From Arachidicoccus sp. (GTDB taxonomy: Bacteria > Bacteroidota > Bacteroidia > Chitinophagales > Chitinophagaceae): a stretch of DNA of 64,000 bases. Where the stretch lies: contig JAPWKH010000033.1 of assembly GCA_028283605.1 (NCBI GenBank), positions 124,001 to 188,000 of the forward strand, given 5' to 3'. The translations under genes were made by a program, and so were the position numbers. The notes beneath the pieces are model-generated. The model saw nothing but the letters and a program-made list of their open reading frames with translations, made no database searches and was not told the origin of the DNA. This document shows, piece by piece, positions 5,062 through 58,092 of this stretch. The number at the start of each line of letters is the position of its first letter. Within the stretch, counting starts at the first letter, position 1.

Positions 5062-5152
5062 AGGTATTTGAGTGCATGCTTCAGCATAAATAAAAAAATA
5101 ATATCGTGAAGCTGCAACCATTCTTAATCGAATAGACGAAACAAACAGCTTA

Positions 5153-7720: not shown

Positions 7721-7906
7721 AATTAATAATAATACTCGTTTTGCTGTGCTTTAGAATTTTGCAATAATAGGACAAAAATTGAAAGTGCAATGTTGTTAAT
7801 TTAAAACCATATTGAATTTAGCAGTTGAAATTTGCTTTCATATCTTCTTTCGGGAAGAATAATTTAAGGTTATGACGATGAATATTTCCTATCAAAAATT
7901 AGCCAT

Positions 7907-7914
7907 TATCTTTG
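7907..7914 (+). promoter_or_regulatory. -7 promoter box of rlmD; near-leaderless start
   Basis: TATCTTTG matches the Bacteroidota -7 consensus TAnnTTTG. It ends only 4 bp before the GTG start of rlmD at 7919, so the transcript would begin at or next to the start codon. No TTG -33 element was found at 19-20 bp upstream. Confidence 0.5.
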
Positions 7915-7918
7915 CGGT

Positions 7919-9355: not shown

Positions 9356-9367
9356 TCAGCAAGCATT

Positions 9368-10108
9368 ATGCCCCGATATAATCAGCAAATAGGATTTCCG
9401 CCGTTTCCGCCGATAGTAAAAAATTTGATTATCATCAACTTTTTAATTTGGATTGCAGAGAGTTTTGTAAGCCCGCACGTCACGGATTTTTTTATGAATA
9501 CTTTTGCGCTGCATTCCATGTACAGCGATTATTTCAAGCCCTGGCAGATATTCACTTATATGTTTCTGCACAGCCCTTTCGATGGTAGCATTGGCGATAT
9601 GGGTGTTATGCATATTTTGCTCAACATGCTTGGCCTTTGGATGTTTGGTTCGCAACTGGAAATAATATTAGGGCAAAAAAGATTTTTACTTTTTTACCTG
9701 GCTTGCGGGTTGGGAGCGGGTATAATTTATACAGCTTATCTGCATTTCGATTTAAAAGAGTATGTTGATTTGTATAGAAATATTAAATACAGGCCGGATG
9801 TGAGCAATGATCTTGTGGCAAAGGCAAAAGAGGTGGTAGACCAGACTATTATAGGCGCGAGCGGCGCTATCTACGGAATTCTTGCAGCGTTTGGATACCT
9901 TTTCCCCAATTCTTATTTGCTTATTTATTTCATTATTCCGCTGAAGGCAAAATGGGCTGTCATAGGAATGCTGGCTTATGAACTGTATTCAGTAATTTTT
10001 CCTTCTGTAGGCGATGATGTAGGGCATGTGGCACATCTTGGAGGAGCATTGGTAGGATTTTTGCTGATTTATTTTTGGAATAAAAAAGACAGGACGCATT
10101 TCTATTGA
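9368..10108 (+). CDS. Rhomboid family intramembrane serine protease
   Basis: Rhomboids cleave transmembrane substrates within the bilayer. This 246-residue, roughly six-helix protein has the full catalytic dyad: Ser165 in GASGAIYG and His223 in AHLGG. The MHILLNMLGLWMFG helix carries the His/Asn oxyanion residues of TM2. A 35-residue polar insertion (LKEYVDLYRN... about 127-160) sits before the catalytic Ser helix. It follows rlmD by 12 bp and is followed 45 bp later by a second rhomboid-fold protein, so the three may be cotranscribed. Substrates are unknown. Confidence 0.9.
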   Translation: MPRYNQQIGFPPFPPIVKNLIIINFLIWIAESFVSPHVTDFFMNTFALHSMYSDYFKPWQIFTYMFLHSPFDGSIGDMGVMHILLNMLGLWMFGSQLEIILGQKRFLLFYLACGLGAGIIYTAYLHFDLKEYVDLYRNIKYRPDVSNDLVAKAKEVVDQTIIGASGAIYGILAAFGYLFPNSYLLIYFIIPLKAKWAVIGMLAYELYSVIFPSVGDDVGHVAHLGGALVGFLLIYFWNKKDRTHFY

Positions 10109-10153
10109 TTTTGATTTATAACTTTACGAAAATAAAATTTATTCTTTTCGAAA

Positions 10154-11080
10154 ATGAATCTGACTACTAAACCTAAAAGCAGGATATCTCTTGGTAATAG
10201 CGGCAATGCGCTTGTATTATTAATCGGCGCAAATCTTATTTTCTTTGTTGTGCTGATATTCTTAAAAGTGTTTTACTTTATGACCAGCACCAGCAATTCT
10301 GCCGAGATCAATTCAACTTTGTATCATACGCAGATATTTGATTCTTTTCTTTTGCCGGCATCTTTCAAGCAATTTGTTAATCAGCCGTGGACATTGTTTT
10401 CCTATATGTTCAGCCACGAAAATCTGCTTGATTTATTTTCCAATATGCTTTGGCTTGTTGCCTTCGGATATATTTTACAAAGTATGTCATTCAACAAAAA
10501 AATCATTCCGCTATATCTGTACGGCGGTATTTTGGGCGGAATAATTTTTATCGTAATGAATGCAGTTTTGCCGGATCATTTAAAGCATCTTGATTTTTTA
10601 TCAGGCGCAATGATTGCTACAACTGCTGTGGCTACCGGAGCAACTTTATTAACGCCGCAATACAAAATTTTTCCAATGTTGGGCGGCGGCATTCCTTTAT
10701 GGATTTTGTACCTGGTATTTATGCTGATAAATATAAGTTCTGTTGCAAATGCAGGCGTGGCGGCTATCTCAGCCATTATTTCCTCGGCTCTGATCGGTTT
10801 TATCGTAATATACCAATTGAAAAAAGGGAACGATTATGGCGAATGGATTTACACTTCTGTTTATAAAATTGATGATCTTTTTAATCCGGAGAGAAAAAAA
10901 TCAAGAACAGAACAGGAACATTTTTACAAAACCAACAGAAAGCCTTATGAAACTAAAGAACGTATAACACAAGTACGCATTGATGAAATTCTGGATAAAA
11001 TAAATACAAAAGGATACGATTCTCTTACCAAACACGAGAAAGAATTTTTACAACGTGCGGGTAAAGAGGATATGCTGTAG
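10154..11080 (+). CDS. Catalytically dead rhomboid-like membrane protein with DUF6576-like tail
   Basis: The 308-residue protein has the rhomboid membrane layout (TM1 near residue 20, a TM2 region QPWTLFSYMFSHENLLDLFSN...LWLVAFG, later helices to about residue 220). The catalytic sites are gone: the GxSG helix reads LSGAMIATTAV and the TM6 His helix reads VANAGVAAISAII, with no His. The C-terminal 45 residues (VRIDEILDKIN..GYDSLTKHEKEFLQRA) form a short soluble domain common behind Bacteroidota rhomboids (DUF6576-like). It probably works as a partner or pseudoprotease of the active rhomboid encoded just upstream. Confidence 0.8.
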   Translation: MNLTTKPKSRISLGNSGNALVLLIGANLIFFVVLIFLKVFYFMTSTSNSAEINSTLYHTQIFDSFLLPASFKQFVNQPWTLFSYMFSHENLLDLFSNMLWLVAFGYILQSMSFNKKIIPLYLYGGILGGIIFIVMNAVLPDHLKHLDFLSGAMIATTAVATGATLLTPQYKIFPMLGGGIPLWILYLVFMLINISSVANAGVAAISAIISSALIGFIVIYQLKKGNDYGEWIYTSVYKIDDLFNPERKKSRTEQEHFYKTNRKPYETKERITQVRIDEILDKINTKGYDSLTKHEKEFLQRAGKEDML

Positions 11081-11116
11081 CAGGCATCTGCAAACTGATT
11101 TAAACCTTACAATATT

Positions 11117-11749
11117 ATGAACATCGCCGGCATTCGTACTGATTATAAAAAAATGACTTTAGACGAAGACGTTGTTGAAAAAAATGCCATAGATCAATTC
11201 GGTATTTGGTGGGAGCATGCAGTGCAAAGTAAGATCGAAGAAGTAAATGCCATGACATTAGCAACAAGCTCTTCTAACGGAAAGCCTGATGCGCGCATTG
11301 TTTTACTCAAAGATTTCTCAGAAAAAGGATTTGTTTTTTTTACTAATTATAATAGCGCCAAAGGGATAGAATTATCGGAAAATCCTGTTGCTTGTCTTGT
11401 CTTCTTTTGGAAGGAGCTCGAAAGGCAGATAAGAATTTCGGGAAGCGTTGAAAAGGTCCCTGATGCAGACAGTGATGCTTATTTCTATTCGAGGCCTGTC
11501 GGCAGCAGGATAGGAGCGTGGAGTTCTCCGCAGAGCCAGCCGATTCCGTCAAGGGATATTATAGAATCAAATGAAAAATATTTTCTTGAAAAATATGGCG
11601 AAGAAGTACCGCGCCCTGAACACTGGGGCGGATATATCGTAAAGCCTGAAGCGATAGAATTTTGGCAAGGCCGGCCAAACCGGCTTCATGACAGATTGCT
11701 GTATACTTTGGAAAATGAAGAATGGAAAATCGAAAGGCTGGCGCCGTAA
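11117..11749 (+). CDS. pdxH: Pyridoxamine 5'-phosphate oxidase
   Basis: PdxH uses FMN and oxygen to oxidise pyridoxamine- or pyridoxine-5'-phosphate to pyridoxal phosphate. The 210-residue length is normal. Typical blocks are DARIVLLKDFSEKGFVFFTNYNS (FMN and phosphate binding), SRPVGSRIGAWSSPQS, and the C-terminal WQGRPNRLHDR substrate motif. The gene ends 3 bp before the convergent smpB gene. Confidence 0.96.
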   Translation: MNIAGIRTDYKKMTLDEDVVEKNAIDQFGIWWEHAVQSKIEEVNAMTLATSSSNGKPDARIVLLKDFSEKGFVFFTNYNSAKGIELSENPVACLVFFWKELERQIRISGSVEKVPDADSDAYFYSRPVGSRIGAWSSPQSQPIPSRDIIESNEKYFLEKYGEEVPRPEHWGGYIVKPEAIEFWQGRPNRLHDRLLYTLENEEWKIERLAP

Positions 11750-11752
11750 AAT

Positions 11753-12187
11753 TTATTTCAGGTATCTTTTAATTTCTTTTTCCGTATCCCGCTTTTTTAA
11801 AGTCTCTCTTTTATCGTGCAATTTTTTTCCGCGCGCTAAACCTATTTCTACTTTTACAAGATTTTTTTCATTCATGAAAATTTTAAGCGGAATAATAGTA
11901 AGCCCTTTTTCTTTTGTGGCAGTTTTCAGTCTCTTAATTTCTCTTTTGGTAAGCAGCAGTTTTCTATCGTGCACCGCTATATGATTGTTTGAAGTTCCTA
12001 AACTATATTCTCCGATATACAAACCGCGCAGCCATAATTCGTCATTGTCCAACAGGCAAAAACTATCGTTGAAACTGACCTTTCCTGTCCGGATAGATTT
12101 TACCTCTGTCCCCAACAAAACAACGCCCGCAACGTATTTATCTTCTATGTTGTAATTAAAATAGGCTTGTCTGTTATTATGGCTCAT
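11753..12187 (-). CDS. smpB: SsrA-binding protein SmpB
   Basis: SmpB binds tmRNA and delivers it to stalled ribosomes for trans-translation. The 144-residue protein has the OB-fold signatures YFNYNIEDKYVAGVVLLGTEVKS, LWLRGLYIGEY and KKLHDKRETLK, then the basic C-terminal tail that probes the mRNA channel. The tmRNA gene itself was not found in this window. Confidence 0.96.
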   Translation of the reverse strand: MSHNNRQAYFNYNIEDKYVAGVVLLGTEVKSIRTGKVSFNDSFCLLDNDELWLRGLYIGEYSLGTSNNHIAVHDRKLLLTKREIKRLKTATKEKGLTIIPLKIFMNEKNLVKVEIGLARGKKLHDKRETLKKRDTEKEIKRYLK

Positions 12188-12221
12188 TAAATAGAACTAA
12201 AAATTTTTTCTGCAAGTAATT

Positions 12222-13124
12222 TTACGACAGGAATAAATGTATAACAGTTGCCAGCTTCTGTTTCAGTTCTTTGCGATTAATGATAAAATCAAGAAAGCCG
12301 TGATCCAGTAAAAACTCGCTGCGCTGAAATCCCTTGGGCAAATCTTTACGCATGGTTTCTTTAATAATTCGAGGGCCGGCAAAGCCGATGAGTGCGCCGG
12401 GCTCTGCGATATTCAAATCGCCCAACATAGCGAAGCTCGCTGACACGCCGCCAAAAGTAGGATCTGTCATTAAGGAAATGTACGGCAATTGTGCGTCGCT
12501 CAATTGCGAAAGTTTTGCACTTGTTTTTGCCATTTGCATCAGGCTGAAAGCACTTTCCATCATTCGTGCTCCGCCGCTTTTACTGATGACGAGATAAGGC
12601 ATTTTGTGTTTTATGGCATAATCAACAGCACGGCTGAATTTTTCGCCCATTACACTTCCTAAAGATCCACCGATGAAATTAAAATCCATACATCCGACAA
12701 TAATATTCTGCCCGTTGATTTTTCCGGATGCTACGCGCATAGAATCTTTAAGATCGGTGGAAGAATAAATATCATCCAGCCTTTTTGCATAAGATTTTAA
12801 ATCGGTAAATCCCAAAAAGTCTTTGCTGCGGATATTATCGAAATGTTCGGTATATTTCTTTTCGTCAAAAAGGATTTTGAAATAATCATCGCTGCTGATT
12901 CTGTGATGATAATTGCATTTAGGGCAAACGTATAAGTTTTCTTCCAGTTCCGATGAAGTGCATATATAATTGCATTCGGGGCATTTCGTCCACAACCCTT
13001 CAGGTACTTCTTTTTTTTCTGAGGTTGAAGTTTGTATTCCTTTTCTCAACCGGATAAACCACCGGCTTTTATTATCATTTTTTGATTCTTCCGATCGGTT
13101 TTCTTTTTGCTGTTCTTCGCTCAT
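12222..13124 (-). CDS. accD: Acetyl-CoA carboxylase carboxyltransferase subunit beta
   Basis: AccD pairs with AccA to transfer the carboxyl group from biotin to acetyl-CoA, the first step of fatty acid synthesis. An N-terminal Cys4 zinc ribbon (CPECNYIC...CPKCNYHH) precedes the crotonase-fold core with GGSLGSVMGEKFSRA, SGGARMMESAFSLMQMAKTS and the FAGPRIIKET block. I start at the ATG at 13124 (300 residues). A TTG 33 bp further upstream at 13157 is in frame, but it lies inside the likely -7 box, so it cannot be in the transcript. Confidence 0.94.
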   Translation of the reverse strand: MSEEQQKENRSEESKNDNKSRWFIRLRKGIQTSTSEKKEVPEGLWTKCPECNYICTSSELEENLYVCPKCNYHHRISSDDYFKILFDEKKYTEHFDNIRSKDFLGFTDLKSYAKRLDDIYSSTDLKDSMRVASGKINGQNIIVGCMDFNFIGGSLGSVMGEKFSRAVDYAIKHKMPYLVISKSGGARMMESAFSLMQMAKTSAKLSQLSDAQLPYISLMTDPTFGGVSASFAMLGDLNIAEPGALIGFAGPRIIKETMRKDLPKGFQRSEFLLDHGFLDFIINRKELKQKLATVIHLFLS

Positions 13125-13154
13125 AAATGATTTGTCCAAAATTTCAAAGGAGAA

Positions 13155-13162
13155 CAAAAATA
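13155..13162 (-). promoter_or_regulatory. -7 promoter box of accD
   Basis: On the minus strand TATTTTTG fits TAnnTTTG, with a TTG 22 bp further upstream. It predicts a leader of roughly 25 nt before the ATG at 13124, and it decides the accD start against the TTG at 13157. Confidence 0.45.
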
Positions 13163-13249
13163 AGGAGTTTAATTATAATGCGAACAATTTACAGGTATGT
13201 TTTGCATTACAATTCATATTGAAGTGCACAATGTATTGCATCAAGCCTA

Positions 13250-13930
13250 TTAATCCATTTTCCGGTCGTCTTTCCTTTTATTCTTGCGGCGGTCTCTGAA
13301 TTTTAAAATAGGAACTTTGTTTTCTGTTCCTTTCAATAAGCGGTTGATATTTTTCTGATGGGTTAATACCAGTAACAAAGCCACTGCGATGGAGAATATT
13401 CTGTAGAAAGTAGAATCATCGTTGAATATGAAAAGGATGAGCACGGCAAAAGCTACTCCGGAAAGGATTGAACTTAGAGAAACAAATCTTGTTAAATACA
13501 AAACCAATAAAAATACACCGGCGCAACATCCGGCAACTGCAGGTTGTACAGCTATAATCATCCCGAATAGTGTGGCAACGCCTTTGCCTCCCTTGAAGTT
13601 GGCCCATATCGGAAATATATGGCCTATAACTGCAGCAAGGCCGAGCCCAATCATAAAATTGGTACGTTGCAAGTCTGTGCAAGCACCATGATGCCATGAG
13701 TATTTTTGTAAAGTGAAAGCTAATAAAGAAGCCAACGCTCCTTTGGATACATCTGCAATCATTACCAGTGTGCCCCATTTTGAACCCAATACACGAAATG
13801 TATTGGTTGCGCCTGCGTTTCCGCTACCGTAATCGCGGATATCAATATTAAAAAAGTGCTTGCTTACCCAAACAGAAGTTGGTATAGAACCCAATAAGTA
13901 TGCAACAATCAATAACCCAAACTCTTGCAT
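13250..13930 (-). CDS. plsY: Glycerol-3-phosphate acyltransferase PlsY
   Basis: PlsY is the inner-membrane enzyme that moves the acyl group from acyl-phosphate to glycerol-3-phosphate. The five-helix protein carries the three family motifs: YLLGSIPTSVW, the GSGNAGATNTFRVLG loop, and GHIFPIWANFKGGKGVATLFG. The C-terminal 30 residues (KFRDRRKNKRKDDRK) are strongly basic. Its donor-making partner PlsX is encoded 5 kb away at 19142. Confidence 0.95.
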   Translation of the reverse strand: MQEFGLLIVAYLLGSIPTSVWVSKHFFNIDIRDYGSGNAGATNTFRVLGSKWGTLVMIADVSKGALASLLAFTLQKYSWHHGACTDLQRTNFMIGLGLAAVIGHIFPIWANFKGGKGVATLFGMIIAVQPAVAGCCAGVFLLVLYLTRFVSLSSILSGVAFAVLILFIFNDDSTFYRIFSIAVALLLVLTHQKNINRLLKGTENKVPILKFRDRRKNKRKDDRKMD

Positions 13931-13993
13931 AGAGAATATTTCGTAAAAGTGAGGTTCAAAAATAAGGGATTTGGAGGAAAAGAATATAAAAAT

Positions 13994-14815
13994 CTATTTT
14001 TTTCGCCAAAGCATACAAATCCACTGTTTGTTGTACAACGTATTTACGGGCAATAAATCTAAGCGCGAAAATATTTTTGTGATTTCCTTTTCATCTTCTT
14101 TTAATAAACCACTCAACAGCAATTGCCCGTTTTTATTTAAAATAGTATAGAGTTTATCAGCATTTTCTATAATCACATTTTTATTAATATTGGCCAGAAC
14201 AATATCAAAATCTTTACCTGCAGCTGCACTTTCGGCCTTTTCTATTTTTATATTTAATGCATTATTGGCTACGATATTTTCTTGAGCATTGGAAATTGAC
14301 CAATCATCATTATCTACTGCTAATATATCTGTAGCACCGAGTTCTTCTGCAAGAATGGCTAAAACGCCTGTACCTGTGCCAAAATCGTAAACTTTTTTTC
14401 CGGAGAAATTTAATGATCTCATTTGTTGCATCATCATGAATGTGGTAGCATGATGCCCGGTGCCAAAACTCATTTTTGGCGTTATGATTATTTCATGTTG
14501 TGTATTCTTTTTTATTTGATGAAAATTTGCTCGTACAGTTACGAAATCATCTACTACTACCGGCTCGAAATTCGATTCCCATAAAGCATTCCAATTTTGT
14601 TCTTCTACCTTTTCTGTCCGAAAAGAAAAAGAAAACTCTTCAGCTAATTTCGATATTTTATTTTGGTTAAAATTTGCTGCATCGATAAAAGCGATCAATC
14701 CGAACTCTGTTTGTTCAAAACCATCGAAGCCTTCATCGTTTAAAATGGCTATTATAATACCTGAAGTTTCCGGAGAAATATTGTCAATGAATAATTCGAT
14801 GTAATGCTTTATCAC
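13994..14815 (-). CDS. prmA: Ribosomal protein L11 methyltransferase
   Basis: PrmA trimethylates ribosomal protein L11 using SAM. An N-terminal substrate-recognition domain (about residues 1-80) is followed by the Rossmann methyltransferase with FGTGHHATTFMMM, DFGTGTGVLAI and the catalytic-site-like VLANINKNVI. The start codon is GTG (minus strand, 14813-14815). The 273-residue length is normal for Bacteroidota. Confidence 0.92.
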   Translation of the reverse strand: MIKHYIELFIDNISPETSGIIIAILNDEGFDGFEQTEFGLIAFIDAANFNQNKISKLAEEFSFSFRTEKVEEQNWNALWESNFEPVVVDDFVTVRANFHQIKKNTQHEIIITPKMSFGTGHHATTFMMMQQMRSLNFSGKKVYDFGTGTGVLAILAEELGATDILAVDNDDWSISNAQENIVANNALNIKIEKAESAAAGKDFDIVLANINKNVIIENADKLYTILNKNGQLLLSGLLKEDEKEITKIFSRLDLLPVNTLYNKQWICMLWRKK

Positions 14816-48598: not shown

Positions 48599-49042
48599 AT
48601 GATGTCAAAAAAATGCAAGTATGCTCTCAAAGCTTTGGTAAGGCTTGCAGCTGATTATCAAAAAGGATATTTATCTACCGGGTTAATTGCGCAGGAAGAA
48701 GCTATTCCAAAAAAATTTTTGGAACAAATACTGTTGGAATTAAAACAGGTAAAATTTGTAAACAGCCAAAAAGGAGCAGGTGGTGGTTATTATCTTTTGA
48801 AACATCCTAAGGAAATTACATTTGCTGATATTTATCGCATTTTCGATGGTCCAATTGCGCTCACTCCCTGCACTTCTTTAAACTTTTACGAGCCTTGCAA
48901 CGACTGCCCAAACGAAGCTGTCTGTTATCTCCGAAAACAGCTGATAGATATCAGGGACAAAACCCGGAAAAGTATGATGGGGGCTTCTTTGCAATCTTTT
49001 CTTGACAATAAATCTGCCATAAGCAAAAACCTGAAAAAATAA
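48599..49042 (+). CDS. Rrf2 family transcriptional regulator
   Basis: The 147-residue protein has the Rrf2 winged helix (MSKKCKYALKALVRLA, STGLIAQEEAIPKKFLEQILLEL, VNSQKGAGGGYYLLK) and a cysteine cluster in the dimer-helix region (Cys91, Cys100, Cys103, Cys109) that could bind an Fe-S cluster, as in IscR. It lies immediately upstream of the sulfate assimilation operon, so it is the obvious candidate regulator of that operon, in the role CymR has in Firmicutes. Confidence 0.9.
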   Translation: MMSKKCKYALKALVRLAADYQKGYLSTGLIAQEEAIPKKFLEQILLELKQVKFVNSQKGAGGGYYLLKHPKEITFADIYRIFDGPIALTPCTSLNFYEPCNDCPNEAVCYLRKQLIDIRDKTRKSMMGASLQSFLDNKSAISKNLKK

Positions 49043-49101
49043 AAATTTCTATAAAAACGAATAGTTGTTCACTAATCTTTTTTAAAAAAGTATATAAATC
49101 C

Positions 49102-49120
49102 TACCAAATTAATAGAATTT
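49102..49120 (+). promoter_or_regulatory. Putative sulfur-regulon operator in the cysH promoter
   Basis: TACCAAATTAATAGAATTT lies directly upstream of the -7 box at 49126 and includes the imperfect palindrome CTAnnAA-N-TTnnTAG (49101-49115). A 17/19 match occurs in front of cysE at 25795-25813. The Rrf2 gene 60 bp away is the likely binder. Confidence 0.55.
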
Positions 49121-49125
49121 AATTT

Positions 49126-49133
49126 TATTTTTG
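49126..49133 (+). promoter_or_regulatory. -7 promoter box of the sulfate assimilation operon
   Basis: TATTTTTG matches TAnnTTTG and would start transcription near 49139, about 24 nt before the leader ORF. The -33 position is occupied by the putative operator. Confidence 0.5.
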
Positions 49134-49162: not shown

Positions 49163-49249
49163 ATGAAAATTTTTTTTCAATATAATTTTTTAAAAGCGGC
49201 TTCTTCTATCCGTTTGCATAGTTGCTGTTATGGTGCGATGTGTTGCTGA
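49163..49249 (+). CDS. Cysteine-rich leader peptide (28 residues) of the cysH operon
   Basis: An ATG frame of 28 codons ends in a TGA 47 bp before the cysH ATG. The peptide ends SIRLHSCCYGAMCC, with four cysteines in two pairs within the last eight residues. The position between promoter and first sulfur gene, together with the Cys pairs, is what a cysteine-sensing attenuation peptide would look like. The left arm of a possible hairpin (49214-49220) lies just ahead of the first Cys pair. Confidence 0.6.
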   Translation: MKIFFQYNFLKAASSIRLHSCCYGAMCC

Positions 49250-49263
49250 TATGCAATATTTTT
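49214..49263 (+). promoter_or_regulatory. Possible attenuator hairpin overlapping the leader ORF
   Basis: TTGCATA (49214-49220) and TATGCAA (49250-49256) are a perfect 7-bp inverted repeat around a 29-nt loop holding the Cys codons, followed at once by TATTTTT. Ribosomes stalled on the Cys codons would cover the left arm. The stem is short, so this is a hypothesis. Confidence 0.35.
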
Positions 49264-49296
49264 AACAAATTAATTCCTCAAATATATTATCCAATA

Positions 49297-50019
49297 ATGG
49301 GCGTTATTCAATATACAGATATAAATCAGGAACTCGATGCTTTGCAAAAAGCAATCGACAATCTGAGTATAGAAGAATCTTTCCAATACATTACGGAAAC
49401 TTATAAGGATGCTGTTGTGTTTTCCACCAGTTTCAGCTACGAAGATCAGGCAATACTGCACATGCTGCGTTCTTTGCCTGTAAAAGTTTTCACGTTGGAT
49501 ACAGGAAGATTATTTAAACAAACCTACAGTACTTGGGATGCTACTTTACAGCAGTACAAAGTGCCAATCGCTGCATATTATCCCAACGAAGAAGCGTTGC
49601 AAAAATTTATTTCACAAAACGGCCCAAATTCATTTTACGATTCTGTGGACAACAGAAAGCAATGTTGCTATTTACGCAAAGTAGAACCTTTGAAAAGAGC
49701 GCTTCATGGCAATAAAATCTGGATCACAGGGTTGCGTGCCGAACATTCTCCCGACAGGGAAAATCTTTCCAAAGTGGAATGGGACGAGAGCAATCAGATT
49801 TTTAAATATCATCCATTGTTGCACAAAACAACGGAAGAGGTGATCAATTATATAAAGCAAAATCATGTGCCTTATAATCCTTTGCACGACAAAGGTTTTG
49901 TAAGCATAGGCTGCGAGCCTTGTACAAGAGCAATACGTGAGGGAGAAGATTTTCGCGCGGGCAGATGGTGGTGGGAAGATGCTTCCAAAAAAGAATGCGG
50001 TTTGCACATTCATAAATAA
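49297..50019 (+). CDS. cysH: Assimilatory adenylyl-sulfate (APS) reductase
   Basis: The enzyme reduces APS to sulfite with thioredoxin. The 240-residue protein (from the ATG at 49297) has the nucleotide-binding VFSTSFSYEDQAIL and the two cysteine pairs Cys123-Cys124 and Cys206/Cys209 (GCEPC) that bind a 4Fe-4S cluster, which marks APS rather than PAPS reductases, and the redox Cys234 in KKECGLHIHK. No APS kinase (cysC) lies in the operon, which agrees with direct APS use. The open frame extends upstream into the leader but has no ATG there. Confidence 0.93.
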   Translation: MGVIQYTDINQELDALQKAIDNLSIEESFQYITETYKDAVVFSTSFSYEDQAILHMLRSLPVKVFTLDTGRLFKQTYSTWDATLQQYKVPIAAYYPNEEALQKFISQNGPNSFYDSVDNRKQCCYLRKVEPLKRALHGNKIWITGLRAEHSPDRENLSKVEWDESNQIFKYHPLLHKTTEEVINYIKQNHVPYNPLHDKGFVSIGCEPCTRAIREGEDFRAGRWWWEDASKKECGLHIHK

Positions 50020-50050: not shown

Positions 50051-50958
50051 ATGGCGCAATATCATTTAGACTATTTGGAACAATTGGAATCGGAAGCGAT
50101 CCACATTTTAAGAGAAGTGGCAGGGCAGTTTGAAAAGCCTGCGCTTTTATTCAGTGGGGGAAAAGATAGTATTACATTAGTGCATTTGGCATTAAAAGCC
50201 TTTCGTCCCGGAAAATTTCCTTTCCCTTTAGTGCACATAGATACAGGGCATAATTTTGCCGAAGCGCTGAAGTTCAGGGATGATCTTGTTGAAAAAATAG
50301 GAGAGAGATTGATTGTAAGAAAAGTAGAAGACACTATTAAACAAAAAAATCTTACGGAAACAAAAGGAAAATTTGCCAGCCGCAACGCTTTACAAACTTA
50401 TACATTGTTAGATACTATTGAGGAATTTGGTTTTGACGCATGTATTGGCGGAGCAAGAAGAGACGAAGAAAAAGCGCGTGCAAAAGAAAGAGTATTCTCG
50501 GTAAGGGATGAGTTTGGTCAATGGGACCCAAAATTACAAAGGCCTGAATTATGGAATATTTATAACGGTAAAATACATAAAGGGGAAAATGTACGTGCGT
50601 TCCCTATCAGCAACTGGACTGAATTGGATATATGGAATTATATCAAAAAAGAAAATATTGAATTGCCTTCTATTTATTTTCTCATGAAAGAGAAGTGATA
50701 GAATTTAATAAACAATTTATAGCAGTTTCTCCGTTTATAACACTTGATGAAAATGATTCAATCATTACGAAAAAAGTGCGCTACAGAACCGTTGGAGATA
50801 TGACATGCACGGCAGCCGTTACTTCCGAAGCTGCTACGATAGATGATATTATTTCTGAGATTGTGGCTGCAAAAACAAGCGAGCGTGGCGAAACGCGTAT
50901 TGATGACAGAATCTCCGAAACAGCAATGGAAGACAGAAAAAAGAACGGATATTTCTAA
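50051..50958 (+). pseudogene. cysD: Sulfate adenylyltransferase subunit 2, frameshifted
   Basis: CysD is the PP-loop subunit of ATP sulfurylase. From the ATG at 50051 the frame matches CysD (LLFSGGKDSITLVHLALKAF, IGGARRDEEKARAKERVFS, FPISNWTELDIWNYI) until about residue 209, then stops at 50698 after LMKEK. The rest of CysD (HEREVIEFN...RYRTVGDMTCTAAV...AMEDRKKNGYF) continues at once in the next frame to 50958. One T is missing from the run at 50677-50680, where five would restore the 302-residue protein. It is a real null allele, a homopolymer sequencing error, or a slippage site; the sequence alone cannot say which. Confidence 0.85.
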
Positions 50959-51035
50959 GATCGGGTAATGAATATTCAATAAATCAAAAATGTCATTATT
51001 CAATAAATTATCATTCAAAAATCTTAATTACATAA

Positions 51036-52275
51036 ATGGATATATTACGTTTTATAACCGCAGGCAGCGTTGATGATGGAAAGAGTACGCTCATCGGGCG
51101 TTTGCTGTACGATAGTAAAAATATATTGGTCGATCAGTTAGAATCTATAAGAAAAGTAGGGCAATTGGCAGGCGATGATGAGTTTGATCTGGCAAGGCTC
51201 ACAGACGGTTTGCGTGCTGAGAGAGAGCAAGGAATTACCATAGATGTTGCGTATAAATATTTTTCAACTCCGAAAAGAAAATTTATCATTTCGGATGCTC
51301 CCGGCCACATACAATATACGCGCAACATGATTACCGGCGCGAGTAATACGTCTTTAATCATCATACTCATTGATGCGAGAAACGGAATTGTAGAGCAAAC
51401 CAAAAGACATTCTATCATAGCTTCTTTGCTCAACATTCCGCATGTAGTGATAGCCATTAATAAATTGGATCTTGTAAATTACAGCCAATCTGTATTTGAA
51501 GAAATTAAAAGCGAATACGAAACAATTGCCGAAAGGCTTTCTCTGAAAAATGTAACTTATATACCTATCAGCGCTTTAACGGGAGATAATGTTGTTGAGC
51601 CTTCTGAAAATTTAAATTGGTATAAAGGAAAAACCCTGCTCGAATTTTTAGAAACTGTAGAAGTAAATTCTGCTATAAATTTAGAAGAAGCGCGTTTCCC
51701 AATACAATATATCATTCGCCCGCAAACGGATGAGTTACACGATTACAGAGGCTACGCTGGTAAAATTGTTGCAGGCATCTATCACAAAGGCGATGAGGTT
51801 ACTATTCTGCCTTCCGGTACGAATACTAAAATAAGTAAAATTGAAGTAGGCGGTAAAGAAATAAAATCAGCATTTGCTCCGCAAAGTGTTGTCATTCATC
51901 TGGAAGATGATGTGGAAGCGGGGAGAGGAAATCTTATTGTAAAAAGGGATAATGTTCCTCCTCTTACGCAGGAATTTGAAGCATTGCTTTGCTGGATGAA
52001 TAATGCTCCATTACAGGCAGGTAATAAATACACTTTACAAAATTAATAGCACAACGATTAAAGCAATCGTTAAGGAAATTACTTATAAGCTGGATGTAAA
52101 TACTTTGGAGAAAATAGAAGCGAACAATATTCAGTTGAATGATATAGTTCGCGTGAAAATAAAAGTTGCTCATCCGTTTGTTTTCGATCCTTATAAAAAA
52201 TTAAACATTGGCGGTGGTTTTGTTCTGATAGATGAAACAAGTTGTCTCACTGTTGCCGCAGGTATGGTACAATAA
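51036..52275 (+). pseudogene. cysN: Sulfate adenylyltransferase subunit 1 (GTPase), frameshifted
   Basis: CysN is the EF-Tu-like GTPase that drives APS formation by CysD. The first 336 residues are intact (TAGSVDDGKSTLIGRLLYD, DAPGHIQYTRN, INKLD) and stop at 52046 after NKYTLQN. The C-terminal beta-barrel continues in another frame (NSTTIKAIVKEITYKLDVNTLEKI ... LIDETSCLTVAAGMVQ) to 52275. Removing one T at about 52042-52043 restores a 412-residue protein. With cysD also shifted, both subunits of ATP sulfurylase are broken as sequenced. Confidence 0.85.
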
Positions 52276-52283
52276 ACTGATAA

Positions 52284-53093
52284 ATGAACAAAGGAAAAAT
52301 AATATTTGCAGGAGCTGGTCCCGGAGACCCGGAATTGATCACTCTAAAAGCGTACAACTATTTACGCGAAGCGGATGTGATTTTATACGATCGCCTGGTA
52401 AGTGATGAAATACTTAATACATACGCAAATCCTCGCGCGGAGTTTGTTTTCGTTGGCAAACAAGGCCATTGCAAATCATCTGTTTCACAAAGCAAAACCA
52501 ATAATCTTTTACTGGAATATTATCATCCGGAAAAGCTTGTCGTTCGTTTAAAAGGCGGCGATACGGCTTTCTATTCCAATATTCTCGATGAACTGATAAC
52601 GCTTACAGAGAATAATATTCCTTATGAAATTGTTCCTGGTATTACAGCGGCTTCCGGAGCTTCGGCATATGCGGGCATTCCGCTAACGGCACGAGGTTAT
52701 TCAGATTCGGTTAAGTTTCTTACTTATTGCAATAGAGAATCCCGTAACGAAAATTATTGGAAATTGCTGGCAGACTGTAATGATACTTTAGTATTTTATA
52801 TGACGGGGGAAAAATTGCCGGAGCTTGCAGAAAACTTACGCGCAGCATCAATCGATCCTAATAAAAAAATCGCTGTGATACAACAGGCTACTACGCCTTT
52901 GCAGCAAGTAAGCATATTATCTTTTAATGATTTACCGCAAGATTATCCCAAATTTATTTCTCCGGTATTAATCATCGTAGGGAAAGTAGTGGCGCTGCAC
53001 GAATCTTTTAAATGGAAAGAAAATGCGGCATCCGGTGTGCCGTACTTTAAGAATCTGTTGCTGTCAAAAAAGATTGAAGAAATATACAGTTAA
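52284..53093 (+). CDS. cobA: Uroporphyrinogen-III C-methyltransferase
   Basis: SUMT makes precorrin-2 from uroporphyrinogen III with two SAM, the first step to siroheme, the cofactor of sulfite reductase. The 269-residue protein has GAGPGDPELITLKAYNYL, VVRLKGGDTAFYS, and PGITAASGASAYAGIPLTARG. It starts 8 bp after cysN in the operon and feeds the siroheme synthase encoded at its end. A Leu-Lys-rich C-terminal extension of about 15 residues is unremarkable. Confidence 0.94.
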   Translation: MNKGKIIFAGAGPGDPELITLKAYNYLREADVILYDRLVSDEILNTYANPRAEFVFVGKQGHCKSSVSQSKTNNLLLEYYHPEKLVVRLKGGDTAFYSNILDELITLTENNIPYEIVPGITAASGASAYAGIPLTARGYSDSVKFLTYCNRESRNENYWKLLADCNDTLVFYMTGEKLPELAENLRAASIDPNKKIAVIQQATTPLQQVSILSFNDLPQDYPKFISPVLIIVGKVVALHESFKWKENAASGVPYFKNLLLSKKIEEIYS

Positions 53094-53116
53094 TTAATAA
53101 AATTCTTGTAGCTTTT

Positions 53117-54823
53117 ATGTTGACGAAATCGAAAGAACAATTATTACAATCACTGATTCAGGATGCATCAAGACAAGAATTGATCTGGATGAGCGGCTAT
53201 CTCTCCGGCTTATTGGCATCTTCGGCAGAGAGTAAATCGCTTCCGCAAACAAGTTCCAATGTTGCCAATGTAAAACTGACTATCATTTACGGAACAGAAA
53301 CCGGTAATGCAAAAAGCCTTTCCGTAAAATTAGCGGCAATTGCAAAAAAGCAGGGCATCAAAGTAAAATTAGAATCTGCTGAGCAATACAAAACAAATAC
53401 ACTTTCAAAAGAAGAAAATCTTTTAATTGTTATCAGCACGCAAGGCGATGGCGAGCCGCCAATTGCTGCAAAAAAGTTTTATGATTTTTTGCATCATGAA
53501 TCATCTTCGTTAAATAATCTCAAATATGCGGTAATTGCTTTAGGAGACAGTTCATATCCTTTATTCTGTAAAGCCGGCGAGGACGTAGATATACAGTTAG
53601 AAAAATTAGGAGCGAGGCGTTTCGCGCAAGTAATAAAATGCGATACGGATTTCGAGCAGCCGGCTGCGCAATGGTTCGAAAATGCGATACAAAATATTGG
53701 GCAAAGCAGCGCAGCAAGCGCCATTCAGCCGAAAGCAACGGCTCCGGCCCAAAAGCATACGAAGAAAATATATCAGGGCATTGTTTCTTCCATCATCAAT
53801 TTAAATGATACGGGTTCTTCTAAAGAAACCTATCATATCGAAATAGATGCGGATGAAGAAATTCATTATTTACCCGGCGATTCTATCGGTATCATTCCGC
53901 GAAATCCTGCACATGCGGTCGAAGAAATTATTCAATTAATGAATGCTAAAGCCGATGATATCATTGAGTACAAAGGAAATGAAATCACGCTCTCAGACTT
54001 ACTTTCTTCCAAATTAAATATTGCATATTTACCCGAGCGTATTGTGAAAAAATACGCGGAACTAACGGATCAGCAAATTCCCGATACTAAAATAAGCCTG
54101 AATGATTTATTGAAGATTTATCCGATTCCGGAAAATTTCAGCATCGAAGATCTTATCAAGATATTAGAACCGATAACGCCGAGACTGTATTCTGTTTCAT
54201 CGTCGCCTTCAGGGCATGGAAATACTTCAGTGCATATTACGGTAAGTAAAAATAAATTCAAGGTAAACGATAGTTTTAAGTATGGATTATGCTCTAAATA
54301 CTTATCCGATTTCTCAATAAATCAGGAACTCGAGTTTTACGTTCATCCGAACAATGCTTTTCGCCTGCCGGATGAAAATAAAGATGTAATAATGATTGGT
54401 CCCGGCACCGGGATAGCGCCATTTCGTTCATTCTTATTTGAACGCGACAGCAACGGGGCTGCGGGAAGAAATTGGTTGTTTTTCGGCGAGCAGCATTTAT
54501 CTACCGATTTCCTTTATCAAACAGAAATACAGGCATTGCTGGAAACCGGCGTACTTACCAAATTCAACGGAGCATTCTCGCGCGATACGGAAGAAAAAAT
54601 ATATGTTCAGCACAGAATGGAGCAAAATGCAAAAGAACTGATTAGCTGGATAGACAACGGTGCGCACATTTATATCTGCGGTGCTAAAGAACCCATGAGC
54701 GTGGATGTTGAAAATACGCTGAAAAAAATTATAGCTACTGAAAAGAATTTCGATGACTTACAGGCTAGTAATTATATAGATGAATTAAAAGAAAAAGGAC
54801 GTTTGATAAAAGATGTTTATTAA
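53117..54823 (+). CDS. cysJ: Sulfite reductase flavoprotein alpha component
   Basis: The 568-residue diflavin reductase passes electrons from NADPH through FAD and FMN to the sulfite reductase haemoprotein. An N-terminal flavodoxin domain (IIYGTETGNAKSLSVKLA, STQGDGEPP, ALGDSSYPLFC) is followed by the FAD/NADPH ferredoxin-reductase domain (RLYSVSSSPSGHGN, GPGTGIAPFRSFL, YICGAKEPMSVDVE). Flanked by cobA and the haemoprotein gene, 37 bp from the latter. Confidence 0.94.
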   Translation: MLTKSKEQLLQSLIQDASRQELIWMSGYLSGLLASSAESKSLPQTSSNVANVKLTIIYGTETGNAKSLSVKLAAIAKKQGIKVKLESAEQYKTNTLSKEENLLIVISTQGDGEPPIAAKKFYDFLHHESSSLNNLKYAVIALGDSSYPLFCKAGEDVDIQLEKLGARRFAQVIKCDTDFEQPAAQWFENAIQNIGQSSAASAIQPKATAPAQKHTKKIYQGIVSSIINLNDTGSSKETYHIEIDADEEIHYLPGDSIGIIPRNPAHAVEEIIQLMNAKADDIIEYKGNEITLSDLLSSKLNIAYLPERIVKKYAELTDQQIPDTKISLNDLLKIYPIPENFSIEDLIKILEPITPRLYSVSSSPSGHGNTSVHITVSKNKFKVNDSFKYGLCSKYLSDFSINQELEFYVHPNNAFRLPDENKDVIMIGPGTGIAPFRSFLFERDSNGAAGRNWLFFGEQHLSTDFLYQTEIQALLETGVLTKFNGAFSRDTEEKIYVQHRMEQNAKELISWIDNGAHIYICGAKEPMSVDVENTLKKIIATEKNFDDLQASNYIDELKEKGRLIKDVY

Positions 54824-54859
54824 TCACAAATCGTCTAAATAAAAATAATTAAAACTATT

Positions 54860-56518
54860 ATGAGCAATAAGGAAAGCGCAACAGAAAAAATAAAAAAGAA
54901 TAGTAAGGGTTTGCGCGGAACCATGCTGGAAAGTTTGGCCGATGAGCATACAGGCGCTATTCGCGAAGATGATCAGGCTTTGGTAAAATTTCATGGCATG
55001 TATTTGCAGGATGATCGTGATAAGCGTACAGAAAGAGCCGAAAAGAAATTGGACAGGTTATGGAGCTTCATGGTTCGCTTACGATTGCCCGGTGGTTTTG
55101 TTACCGGCGAGCAATGGGAAGCCTTGCACCACATTGCAGGCAAATATACGACCGGCGTTATAAAAATTACCACGCGGCAAACAATACAACTACATGGCAT
55201 TTTAAAACATAATGCAAGGCCCACACATCGCGAATTTAATCTGGCGTCGTTAGATTCCATAGCAGCTTGCGGCGATGTAAACAGGAATGTTTCGGCATCG
55301 GCGCATCCTGATGTATCTCCTTTGCACAGCGAAGTATTTGATCTTGCAAATTCCTTAAGCGATTTATTAAGGCCAAAGACACGCGCGTATTATGAGATAT
55401 TTATTGGAGAGGAAAAACTGACAGAGAAAACAGAAGATGATCCGCTTTATCAGGATAGATATTTACCGAGAAAGTTTAAAATCGGGATTGCTATTCCGCC
55501 GGATAATGATGTAGATGTTTTTACCAATGATTGCGCTTTGGTGGCTATTATAGAAAATAACCAAATCATCGGTTACAATGTAGCAGCAGGTGGCGGCATG
55601 GGTGCTACGCATGGCAACAGTGCAACTTATCCAAGATTAGCCTCCATGTTTGGGTTTGTCAAAAAAGAAGATGTAGAGAAAGTTGTCTATGAAATCGTAA
55701 CGGTTCAAAGAGATTTCGGTAATCGTGAGGACAGGAAGTTTTCCCGCTTAAAATATACGCTCGACAGGTTGGGAGTAGAAACTTATAAGCAAGAAGTTGA
55801 AAAAAGAAGCAATGTAAAATTTGAAGAAGCTAAGCCATATTATTTTTCTTCACGTACCGATAGATACGGATGGGCACAAAACCATGAAGGCAAATGGTTC
55901 TATACGGTTTTTGTAGAAGCCGGCCGATTAACTGACACAGATACTGTTTTGTTTAAAACTGCTTTCTTGGAAATTGCGCAGGCACGTAAGGCTGATTTCA
56001 GATTTACTTCCAACCAAAATATAATTGTAAGTAATGTATTGAAGAAAGACAAAAAAATCGTAGAAGATATTTTACGGAAATACGGCGTAATTCAATATAC
56101 CGAGAACGCCTCCGTAATCCGAAAAAGTTCCATCGCATGTGTGGCTTTGAATACTTGTTCCTTGGCGTTGGCAGAAGCGCAGCGTTATCTTCCATCTTTG
56201 ATGGATAAGATTGAAACTATTGTAAAAAACCATCATGTAGAAGAAGAAGATATTTCGATACGGATGACAGGTTGCCCCAATGGTTGTGCAAGGCCTTATG
56301 CAGCAGAAATAGGATTTGTAGGCACGGCATTAGGTCATTACAATATGCATCTTGGCGCCGATGCTGTTGGTACAAGGTTGAATAAACTGTATAAAGAAAA
56401 TCTTAATGAAGAAGAAATACTGAATGAATTGGATAATTTAATCGGCATATATGCTAAAGAAAAAAAATCCGGTGAAAGTTTTGGAGATTTTTCATTAAGA
56501 AAATTTCTTATAACATAA
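54860..56518 (+). CDS. cysI: Sulfite reductase haemoprotein beta component
   Basis: The siroheme and 4Fe-4S enzyme reduces sulfite to sulfide by six electrons. The 552-residue protein holds the cluster ligands Cys427, Cys433, Cys472 and Cys476 in CVALNTC and GCPNGC, and the sirohaem-binding TTRQTIQLHGI and SASAHPDVSPLHSEV blocks. The frame is intact, unlike cysD and cysN. It could also use ferredoxin, but the adjacent cysJ favours NADPH. Confidence 0.94.
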   Translation: MSNKESATEKIKKNSKGLRGTMLESLADEHTGAIREDDQALVKFHGMYLQDDRDKRTERAEKKLDRLWSFMVRLRLPGGFVTGEQWEALHHIAGKYTTGVIKITTRQTIQLHGILKHNARPTHREFNLASLDSIAACGDVNRNVSASAHPDVSPLHSEVFDLANSLSDLLRPKTRAYYEIFIGEEKLTEKTEDDPLYQDRYLPRKFKIGIAIPPDNDVDVFTNDCALVAIIENNQIIGYNVAAGGGMGATHGNSATYPRLASMFGFVKKEDVEKVVYEIVTVQRDFGNREDRKFSRLKYTLDRLGVETYKQEVEKRSNVKFEEAKPYYFSSRTDRYGWAQNHEGKWFYTVFVEAGRLTDTDTVLFKTAFLEIAQARKADFRFTSNQNIIVSNVLKKDKKIVEDILRKYGVIQYTENASVIRKSSIACVALNTCSLALAEAQRYLPSLMDKIETIVKNHHVEEEDISIRMTGCPNGCARPYAAEIGFVGTALGHYNMHLGADAVGTRLNKLYKENLNEEEILNELDNLIGIYAKEKKSGESFGDFSLRKFLIT

Positions 56519-56625
56519 TTGATAATTTTACACGTAAAATATTTTCTTTTATTCATTCCGAGAAAACGAATATAACTACTAACAATTTATTTCCTGTTTT
56601 TATAAAGCCGGAAAACTTCAGGTTA

Positions 56626-58092
56626 TTGATAGTAGGTGGCGGCAAGGTTGCGCTGGAAAAATTATCTGTTCTCATGAGCCATGCACCGGCTGTAAAAGTT
56701 ACGGTCGTGGCAAGAGAGGCACTTGGAGAAATAAAACAATTAGCAGATAGTTCCGAAAATATTTCTTTAATACAAAAGGAATATGAGGTTTCGGATCTGG
56801 AGAATGCGGATTTGGTAATTGTGGCGGTAAATGATATTGCCTGTGCGGGAAAGATTTGTAAAGAGGCGCATTGCAAAAAGTTATTGGTCAATGTTGCAGA
56901 CACACCGGATCTTTGCGATTTTTATCTCAGCAGTATTGTAAAAAAAGGGAATTTAAAAATTGCAATATCAACCAACGGAAAATCTCCTACACTTGGAAAA
57001 AGGCTGAAAGAGATATTGAACAATGCGATTCCCGAAGAGATTGATACTTCTTTAGAACAATTAAATCTTATACGCAATCAATTGGCAGGAGATTTTGATA
57101 GGAAAGTGAGGAAGTTGAACGAATTAACTAAAATAATGACCGAGGACATGAAAGAAAAGAAAACAATTATTAAGCCTGCTGCGCTTGATCGCACATCATT
57201 CTGGAAAAAGGTTGCGTTATTGGCAGTAATTATATTGGCATCTATGTTTGTCGGTTATTTTTTATTGAGCGCCGTACTTCCTGCTAACTGGGTTAAGGCC
57301 GGTGGAAATGCATTAGCGAATACTTTTAATGAACAATTTATTTGGATGTTCATCGCGGGTTTCGCGGCACAGTTGGTAGATGGAGCAATGGGCATGGGAT
57401 ACGGAGTGCTGGCCACTACTTTTCTTTTGTCTTCCAATTTGCCTATACCTATTGCCGGCATCAGCAGTAGCGTGCACATGGCCGAAATGTTTTCTGTAGG
57501 CACAGCAGGTATCAGCCACTATAAATATAAACATGTCAATAAAAAATTATGGGTTGCTTTGGTAATTCCCGGTATAATCGGCGCAGTTGCAGGCGCTGTT
57601 TTTATCGGTACGATGGGCAAAAGCTTGGGAAATTATTTGCGTCCTGTCGTATCGATATATACTTTTTATTTAGGATTTAAAATATTTCAAAAAGCATTTA
57701 AAAATTATAAAGAAAAGAACAAGACCAAACTTTTAAATGTACGCCCTGTCGCATTGATTGGTGGTTTTCTCGATGCATTTGGCGGCGGTTGGGGGCCATT
57801 AGTTACCAGTACACTTATTTCCGGTGGAAGAGACCCTTTATACACAATCGGTTCATCAACCTTTACAAAGTTTTTTACTTCCATCGCCAGCACTGCTACA
57901 TTTGTAATTGTATTTCATCAAATGCATTTTCAGTTGATTGCCGGTTTGATCATAGGAGGTGTGTTGGCAGCGCCGCTTGCCGCTAAACTATCCGGAAAAA
58001 TTCCCTTAAAAACGATGTTTATCGCAGTAGGTATTTTAGTAATTCTTTGCAGCCTGAAAGTACTTTACAATTTTTTTGACTTAATGTTTTGA
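56626..58092 (+). CDS. Siroheme synthase N-domain fused to TauE/SafE sulfite transporter
   Basis: The N-terminal 170 residues are the Met8p/CysG-type precorrin-2 dehydrogenase and ferrochelatase (IVGGGKVALEKLSVL, LVNVADTPDLCDFY, AISTNGKSPTLGKRL). After a linker, about eight membrane helices follow with TauE/SafE features (FIAGFAAQLVDGAMGMGYG, GGFLDAFGGGWGPLVTSTLI). One chain thus joins siroheme synthesis and sulfite or sulfonate transport. The first standard start is the TTG at 56626, but family homology begins further upstream (NNLFPVFIKPENFRLL) in the same open frame with no ATG; an ATA at 56572 sits where the ATG should be. Confidence 0.85.
   Translation: MIVGGGKVALEKLSVLMSHAPAVKVTVVAREALGEIKQLADSSENISLIQKEYEVSDLENADLVIVAVNDIACAGKICKEAHCKKLLVNVADTPDLCDFYLSSIVKKGNLKIAISTNGKSPTLGKRLKEILNNAIPEEIDTSLEQLNLIRNQLAGDFDRKVRKLNELTKIMTEDMKEKKTIIKPAALDRTSFWKKVALLAVIILASMFVGYFLLSAVLPANWVKAGGNALANTFNEQFIWMFIAGFAAQLVDGAMGMGYGVLATTFLLSSNLPIPIAGISSSVHMAEMFSVGTAGISHYKYKHVNKKLWVALVIPGIIGAVAGAVFIGTMGKSLGNYLRPVVSIYTFYLGFKIFQKAFKNYKEKNKTKLLNVRPVALIGGFLDAFGGGWGPLVTSTLISGGRDPLYTIGSSTFTKFFTSIASTATFVIVFHQMHFQLIAGLIIGGVLAAPLAAKLSGKIPLKTMFIAVGILVILCSLKVLYNFFDLMF

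Follow-up and report, generated by a model that had tools for sequence, protein, structure and literature searches.

The window analysed here, a stretch of 64,000 nucleotides from Arachidicoccus sp., holds a short open reading frame (ORF) that ends in cysteine codons and lies in front of cysH, and the question is whether translation of this ORF could report the supply of cysteine to the sulfate operon behind it.

A cysteine-tailed ORF in front of the sulfate operon

The ORF is located on the forward strand at 49163..49249, comprises 28 codons and reads MKIFFQYNFLKAASSIRLHSCCYGAMCC*, as an earlier note made from the sequence alone had described it. When the sequence is read against the ORF, the cysteine codons at its end form two pairs, TGC TGT (49223..49228, forward strand) and TGT TGC (49241..49246, forward strand), the second of which is directly followed by the stop codon. 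The 64 kb window contains 894 short ATG ORFs of 8-60 aa, and only 2 of them carry at least 3 Cys in their last 8 codons, namely this leader and one ORF inside cysH. Neither NCBIfam nor Pfam gave a match for the peptide, and no Rfam family was found over the leader (the scan of the window gave only a tRNA, that of the locus, L031, nothing up to E = 1). From the reading of the ORF together with the family comparison below, we consider it likely that 49163..49249 encodes a cysteine-responsive leader peptide.

The leader is separated from cysH by 47 bases (49250..49296, forward strand), a G-poor spacer with 7 C and 1 G in 47 nt, which is a candidate site of premature termination. The cysH gene (49297..50019, forward strand) encodes (phospho)adenylyl-sulfate reductase (NF002537, 255.5 bits, above cut-off). 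Behind it, NCBIfam matches identify cysD, cysN, a uroporphyrinogen-III methyltransferase gene, cysJ, cysI and a gene for a siroheme-synthase N-terminal domain protein (50051..58092, forward strand), which presumably form the remainder of the sulfate operon and are transcribed with cysH as a single transcript. The frames of cysD and cysN end early (near 50690 and 52040, respectively), with the cysD match stopping at model position 212 of 301 and that of cysN at 330 of 406. The C-terminal part of cysD seems to be continued in another frame, and either a sequencing error or a real lesion could lie behind the early ends.

Recurrence of cysteine-tailed leaders before cysH

The family comparison is based on 147 evenly sampled Chitinophagaceae genomes, 88 of which gave a CysH match at E 1e-40; all 88 loci were examined. 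A strict leader was defined as an ATG ORF of 8-60 codons within 250 bases upstream of cysH whose last 8 codons include 3 or more Cys codons. Such a leader is present at 36 of the 88 loci, in 30 of 63 genera, and absent from 52. Twenty dinucleotide shuffles yielded 0-2 of 88, the reverse strand yielded 2, and the next-best amino acid, Leu, reached 8/88. Because 36 of 88 loci stand against 0-2 in the shuffles, the leader ORF is more than a product of chance.

The recurring part is the tail, for example CCCC, CCNKYCCC, CCKSKRCC or CCCSSCCCCC, and the peptide bodies look unrelated between most cysH loci. Lengths of 12-46 aa were found, without conservation. Cys is the final residue in 46 of the 65 unique cysH leaders, and its codons are mixed (TGT:TGC = 227:120). 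Constraint at the protein level was not clearly visible outside Cys in 28 close leader pairs, which differ at 64, 66 and 86 sites in codon positions 1, 2 and 3, with 126 non-synonymous and 42 synonymous codons. Peptide similarity was discarded as a route to relatives, the best non-self E-value in the 147 genomes being 0.01, and its matches were not used. Short Cys-rich peptides are able to bind metals, and the ORF might encode a small functional peptide with a metal or redox role instead of a leader. Such a function fits poorly with an unconserved length and body, with the absence of an NCBIfam or Pfam match and with the fixed position shortly before sulfur genes, and we regard it as highly improbable.

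Two other species of the genus of the window were examined. At cysH, one (G018) has a weak variant, with 3 Cys that are not at the end (by eye), and in the other (G116) no leader was recognised; at metY the first carries a strict leader and the second a weaker one. Among named records, Cys-tailed leaders were found at 5/5 cysH loci of Rufibacter, some Saprospiraceae-labelled assemblies have the Cys run but not at the ORF end, and the Cys-run leader is absent from the Epilithonimonas and Chryseobacterium cysH loci examined. A sample of the phylum contained CysH in 84 of 247 genomes, and inspection by eye of the 46 phylum cysH loci listed gave five candidates with Cys runs (L224, L227, L234, L240 and L241), located 123-334 bases upstream of cysH. 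Within the family a second cysH context was observed (L165-L198), in which cysH in many cases closely follows a peroxiredoxin-like or cysK-like gene and no poly-Cys leader was seen by eye.

Leaders before metY and the SAM riboswitch

A true metY gene (TIGR01326 above cut-off) is present in 66 of the 147 genomes, and 65 loci were usable after a truncated gene (G076) had been left out. A strict metY leader was defined by 4 or more Cys among the last 12 codons. Of the 65 loci, 29 carry one, compared with 0-1 in shuffles; 8 weaker leaders chosen by eye complete the set of 37 used below. The leader in the genome of the window reads MSYISNIFISFRISVMCCCMCASRI*, with the tail CCCMC, and lies 76 nt 5' of metY. 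Both at cysH and at metY a promoter-like box is followed by a short ORF whose Cys codons cluster towards its end, by a short spacer rich in C and poor in G, and by the gene.

Rfam covered 20 of the 65 metY loci and detected a SAM riboswitch upstream in 11 of them, 10 of 17 with a leader and 1 of 3 without (L312, which is the locus of the window's own genome, L305, L306, L309, L311, L313, L314, L317, L320, L366 and L374). The upstream region in the own genome runs from the aptamer (L312:1067-1170 and 1207-1238) through a strong U-tailed hairpin, a second promoter-like box and the leader to metY, so that it holds two sulfur-related controls.

In many metY leaders the Cys codons lead straight into a hairpin with a GNRA loop, of which TGTATGCC-GNAA-GGCATA is the typical form. 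The loop is GTAA, which reads as a stop, or GCAA, which reads as Gln, and from this alternation it follows that the hairpin, not the reading, is kept. For the alignment 27 of the 37 leaders were used, leaving out 7 without the Cys-Met motif and three that are out of register (L320, L396 and L397); 72.8% of the cells pair, against 25-36% when the alignment is slid. The support from covariation is weak, since both sides change in just 2 of 6 pairs, no more than in the slid versions.

RNA structure around the cysteine codons

In the earlier note the leader was part of an attenuator built on a 7-bp inverted repeat around the Cys codons. The repeat is exact (TTGCATA at 49214-49220 and TATGCAA at 49250-49256, forward strand) and a T-run, TTTTT at 49259-49263, does follow it. 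A repeat of this kind is expected by chance, since 65% of dinucleotide shuffles of 49163-49296 contain one or more, with a mean of 1.58 per shuffle, and the repeat is not supported as functional. Folding of the leader RNA was no better than that of shuffles (z = 0.92 and -0.24), and in the minimum-energy fold of 49205-49275 it is 49240-49246 that pairs with 49253-49259, not the two arms of the repeat. The resulting weak local hairpin, GTGTTGC-TGATAT-GCAATAT (49240..49259, forward strand), holds the stop codon in its loop and runs into the TTTTT; its inner six pairs amount to -5.0 kcal/mol, which is not significant against shuffles. The geometry suggested for stalling is not simply workable, since a ribosome stalled at the first Cys pair would leave the hairpin 49240-49259 free to form beside the T-run, an argument by reasoning that takes the size of the ribosome footprint from general knowledge.

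Relatives gave a divided answer. The note had named conserved Cys codons and a covarying hairpin in related Chitinophagaceae as support, and the codons at the ORF end recur as described above, but no hairpin common to the cysH leaders was found. Hairpins with a U-run were counted in the 60 cysH leader regions whose spacer measures 25-140 nt and occur in 42, 23 and 10% at -4, -6 and -8 kcal/mol, against 17, 8 and 3% of shuffles; in our reading, what passes for the U-run in 12 of the 25 listed cysH matches is a codon repeat such as TTGTTG. In the 37 metY spacers terminator-like sites reach 19 and 16% at -3 and -5, against 6 and 2% in shuffles that are simple, not dinucleotide, with strong sites in L314 and L393. 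This two- to seven-fold excess of intrinsic-terminator-like sites speaks for a hairpin in some of the leaders. A conserved intrinsic terminator was rejected, as the sites, although enriched, occur in a minority of both sets, and the attenuator hairpin proposed for the locus, with its chance-level repeat and ordinary fold, is not supported either.

In trp/his-type attenuators a short leader ORF carries control codons for the amino acid of the pathway. The control codons are alike here and, with a promoter recognised by a consensus box only, the cysH leader has the sequence make-up of amino-acid leader-peptide regulation in the wide sense; unlike in those attenuators, neither competing hairpins nor a terminator proved to be conserved at cysH. 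A U-run terminator hairpin competing with an antiterminator, as in the trp type, was not found in the window, and in the cysH and metY sets hairpins with a U-run exceed shuffles but are confined to a minority. That alternative hairpins around the Cys codons, one of them with a T-run, choose between termination and read-through in the manner of a classical intrinsic attenuator therefore has to be judged on mixed evidence. The weak hairpin with TTTTT in the window and the excess of terminator-like sites speak for it, as does pairing of the Cys codons with the 28 nt after the stop, which in 57 leaders (spacer 25-90 nt) is better than with shuffled spacers (p = 0.002). However, the advantage disappears against swapped spacers (p = 0.86), most leaders have no terminator-like site, and we consider the classical attenuator unlikely.

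Attenuation could also act on translation, with the Cys codons pairing with and hiding the start region of cysH until a stalled ribosome frees it. Pairing of this kind is visible by eye in L058, L098 and L158 and in the group of L063, L066, L067, L072, L086 and L099, and the accessible text of PMC13236596 describes translational attenuation for cysteine genes of M. smegmatis that have a polycysteine leader. In the same 57 leaders, however, pairing between the Cys block and the 28 nt before cysH was no better than in shuffles (p = 0.43) or with swapped spacers (p = 0.62). A general pairing of the Cys codons with the gene start was rejected on these values, and control through a hidden start appears rather doubtful.

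Promoter-like box, candidate operator and Rrf2

The exact box TAnnTTTG, which we take to be the Bacteroidota -7 promoter consensus, occurs within 65 nt of the leader ATG at 57 of the 65 cysH leaders, compared with 4 in shuffles. It starts mostly 28-48 nt 5' of the ATG; the -7-type box of the window, TATTTTTG (49126..49133, forward strand), begins 37 nt 5' of the leader start codon. Judged from the box, the mRNAs of cysH leaders probably have about 20-30 nt ahead of the ATG, and the distance of 28-48 nt thus predicts that they are not leaderless. In 17 of the 37 metY leaders the box starts 15-27 nt before the ATG, which are therefore predicted to be nearly leaderless.

A palindrome with the consensus TCYAY-N7-RTRGA, drawn by eye and partly from the loci that were then scored, was looked for in the 120 nt upstream with one mismatch allowed and is present at 85% of the 65 cysH leaders, against 4% of shuffles, at 51% of the 37 metY leaders and at 5/5 of the sulfatase leaders described below. 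The copy in the window, CCTACCAAATTAATAGA (49100..49116, no strand assigned), has 1 mismatch, and perfect copies are present at cysH of both other species of the genus examined (L047 and L142). Loci without a leader have the palindrome in 34% of 149 cysH and 36% of 28 metY cases, where the 149 loci (and likewise a 103-locus no-leader set) contain 5 duplicate copies of leader loci. The palindrome is a candidate operator of a sulfur regulator and suggests a second layer of control at transcription initiation.

Directly upstream in the window lies a gene for an Rrf2-family transcription regulator (48599..49042, forward strand; NCBIfam TIGR00738, 104.6 bits, above cut-off), whose product is nearest to the NCBIfam models rrf2_super, then CymR and IscR, with CymR at 68.6 bits and under its cut-off. 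For the comparison of Rrf2 with the leader a looser leader definition was used (38 of the 88 cysH loci). An Rrf2 gene stands beside cysH at 2 of the 38 loci with a leader versus 18 of the 50 without (Fisher p = 0.0006), and the window has both. Given this tendency towards mutual exclusion, the operator may belong to a protein other than Rrf2. A DNA-binding regulator at the palindrome, perhaps the upstream Rrf2, might nevertheless set the sulfur response and leave only fine-tuning to the leader, and the frequency of the palindrome at loci with and without a leader, as well as the place of the Rrf2 gene in the window, fit with this. Against it, the mutual exclusion has to be weighed, and a regulator leaves the recurring run of Cys codons in one frame unexplained; we find this explanation rather improbable. 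The alternatives partly overlap with the leader reading, and the likelihoods attached to them do not add up to one whole.

Relation to known cysteine leaders

Mycobacterial polycysteine short ORFs are reportedly the subject of Canestrari et al. 2020. Cys-rich uORFs before sulfur genes have been proposed in mycobacteria (PMC4633059), where cysteine-directed leader attenuation is cited as shown (PMC9094748; PMC13236596), and the uORFC-8-2 motif before cysS in Rhodobacterales, with tandem Cys codons in a uORF, was proposed to act by ribosome-mediated attenuation (PMC8632094), all according to the accessible parts of these sources. Cysteine leader attenuation is therefore not new in itself. For Bacteroidota, the accessible texts mention clues for leader-peptide attenuation before amino-acid operons (PMC9723704) and leader-like sORFs (PMC7366714); a polycysteine leader was not found in the titles and abstract openings searched, a scope that lies outside most subscription journals.

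As far as the mycobacterial ORFs are described in these parts, they share with the present leaders the short uORF, the clustered C-terminal Cys codons and the sulfur-metabolism genes that follow. They differ in phylum, in target genes (here cysH, metY and SusCD-sulfatase) and in being on leaderless mRNAs, which the cysH leaders, judged from the box, probably are not. Compared by description only, uORFC-8-2 is similar in its tandem Cys codons and proposed mechanism, but it has two prominent stems and a terminal U-run, whereas no shared structure was seen here and the target is cysH.

Spacer composition and a possible role of Rho

C exceeds G in the spacers of 56 of the 57 cysH leaders and 37/37 metY leaders, with G at about 10%. 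In the comparison sets the share is 40% for the 149 leaderless cysH loci, 67% for 60 cysK and sulP starts and 58% for 165 other genes. A lean towards C is also seen at metY starts without a leader (86% of 28). The bias could alternatively reflect avoidance of structure. In tnaC of E. coli the Rho site lies immediately after the leader stop, and a ribosome that stays at the end of the leader keeps Rho from it, according to the accessible text of PMC8429421. The leaders studied here resemble tnaC in a C-rich, G-poor spacer and in Cys codons at or near the ORF end, beside a candidate Rho-utilisation site right after the stop, and for this reason stalling that prevents Rho-type termination is favoured. 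From the part of the tnaC literature used here, the systems differ in that tnaC senses free tryptophan and is on when it is abundant, whereas the Cys codons would sense scarcity.

With ample Cys-tRNA, the ribosome would complete the peptide and depart, and transcription would end early in the naked spacer. When cysteine is short, the ribosome would stall at the terminal Cys codons beside the spacer, early termination would be prevented and the sulfur genes would be expressed. We tentatively propose that Rho, and not a hairpin, brings about termination in the spacers of cysH and metY, in the manner of tnaC, and give this step a little less than an even chance.

Leaders before sulfatase operons and a possible sulfur-scarcity regulon

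A blind scan for TGYTGYTGYTGYTRA (CCCC-stop) gave many matches, mostly inside other genes. Among 30 loci examined from it, the only leader-like layouts are 2 in which an intergenic ATG leader ends with the match and is followed by a gene on the same strand; by Pfam both precede SusC-SusD-sulfatase operons. A sulfatase set was then available with 61 matches in seven genomes, of which 20 regions from six genomes were examined. As the SusC motif search missed several SusC genes, operons were called by eye; SusC- and SusD-like genes stand ahead of the sulfatase in 9 of 22 regions (the 20 and the 2 from the blind scan). A leader is present at 5 of these 9 operons, or at 3 of 7 when the two from the blind scan are left aside.

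One of them belongs to the genome of the window, where the leader MMRITKISRPLMSSIFEYCCCCC*, with the tail CCCCC, precedes a SusC gene (TIGR04056) with two sulfatases downstream (PF00884). At this locus (L417) the leader region spans 4370-4442, and SusC-SusD, the two sulfatases and another gene span 4666-14576. A similar set, with a fatty-acid-hydroxylase-family gene, was observed in G065 (L416). Of the 47 SusC matches in the own genome 30 were tested; the leader was present at 1 and absent from the 29 others. Further targets were sought at cysK and sulP and not found: no leader precedes cysK at any of 30 cysK-family loci (11 above cut-off), the single hit standing before another gene, nor sulP at any of 30 sulP-family loci (5 above cut-off).

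The own genome thus holds three such leaders, before cysH, metY and the sulfatase operon. Since similar leaders stand at the cysH genes of relatives and at other sulfur-gathering genes of the same genome, the leader before cysH is probably a built-in cysteine gauge. Whether the Bacteroidota, or at least the Chitinophagaceae, possess a sulfur-scarcity regulon, in which palindromic operator and poly-Cys leader would jointly gate the cysH operon, metY and SusCD-sulfatase, seems to us evenly balanced on the sequence evidence. In such a regulon MetY would serve as OAH/OAS sulfhydrylase, often with a SAM riboswitch further upstream, so that SAM and cysteine would be read separately, and SusCD-sulfatase systems of the outer membrane would scavenge sulfate esters.

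If this is true, a common phylum senses cysteine through translation, and sulfate reduction, sulfhydrylation and the uptake of sulfate esters are all served by a single device; a riboswitch and a leader peptide would be shown in one upstream region. SusCD-sulfatase systems of unknown purpose could be recognised as sulfur scavengers. Translation independent of SD is common in Bacteroidota, and the leaders would offer a ready test of ribosome-based control in that setting.

The tnaC-type C-rich, G-poor region after the leader stop, present at cysH and metY, is weak in the five SusC leader spacers, which are long and only slightly richer in C than in G (C/G 54/52, 32/21, 39/38, 48/36 and 34/21). 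In three of the spacers (L415, L416 and L417) strong hairpins were seen by eye behind A-runs ahead of susC, which may be terminators of antisense RNAs from the opposite strand.
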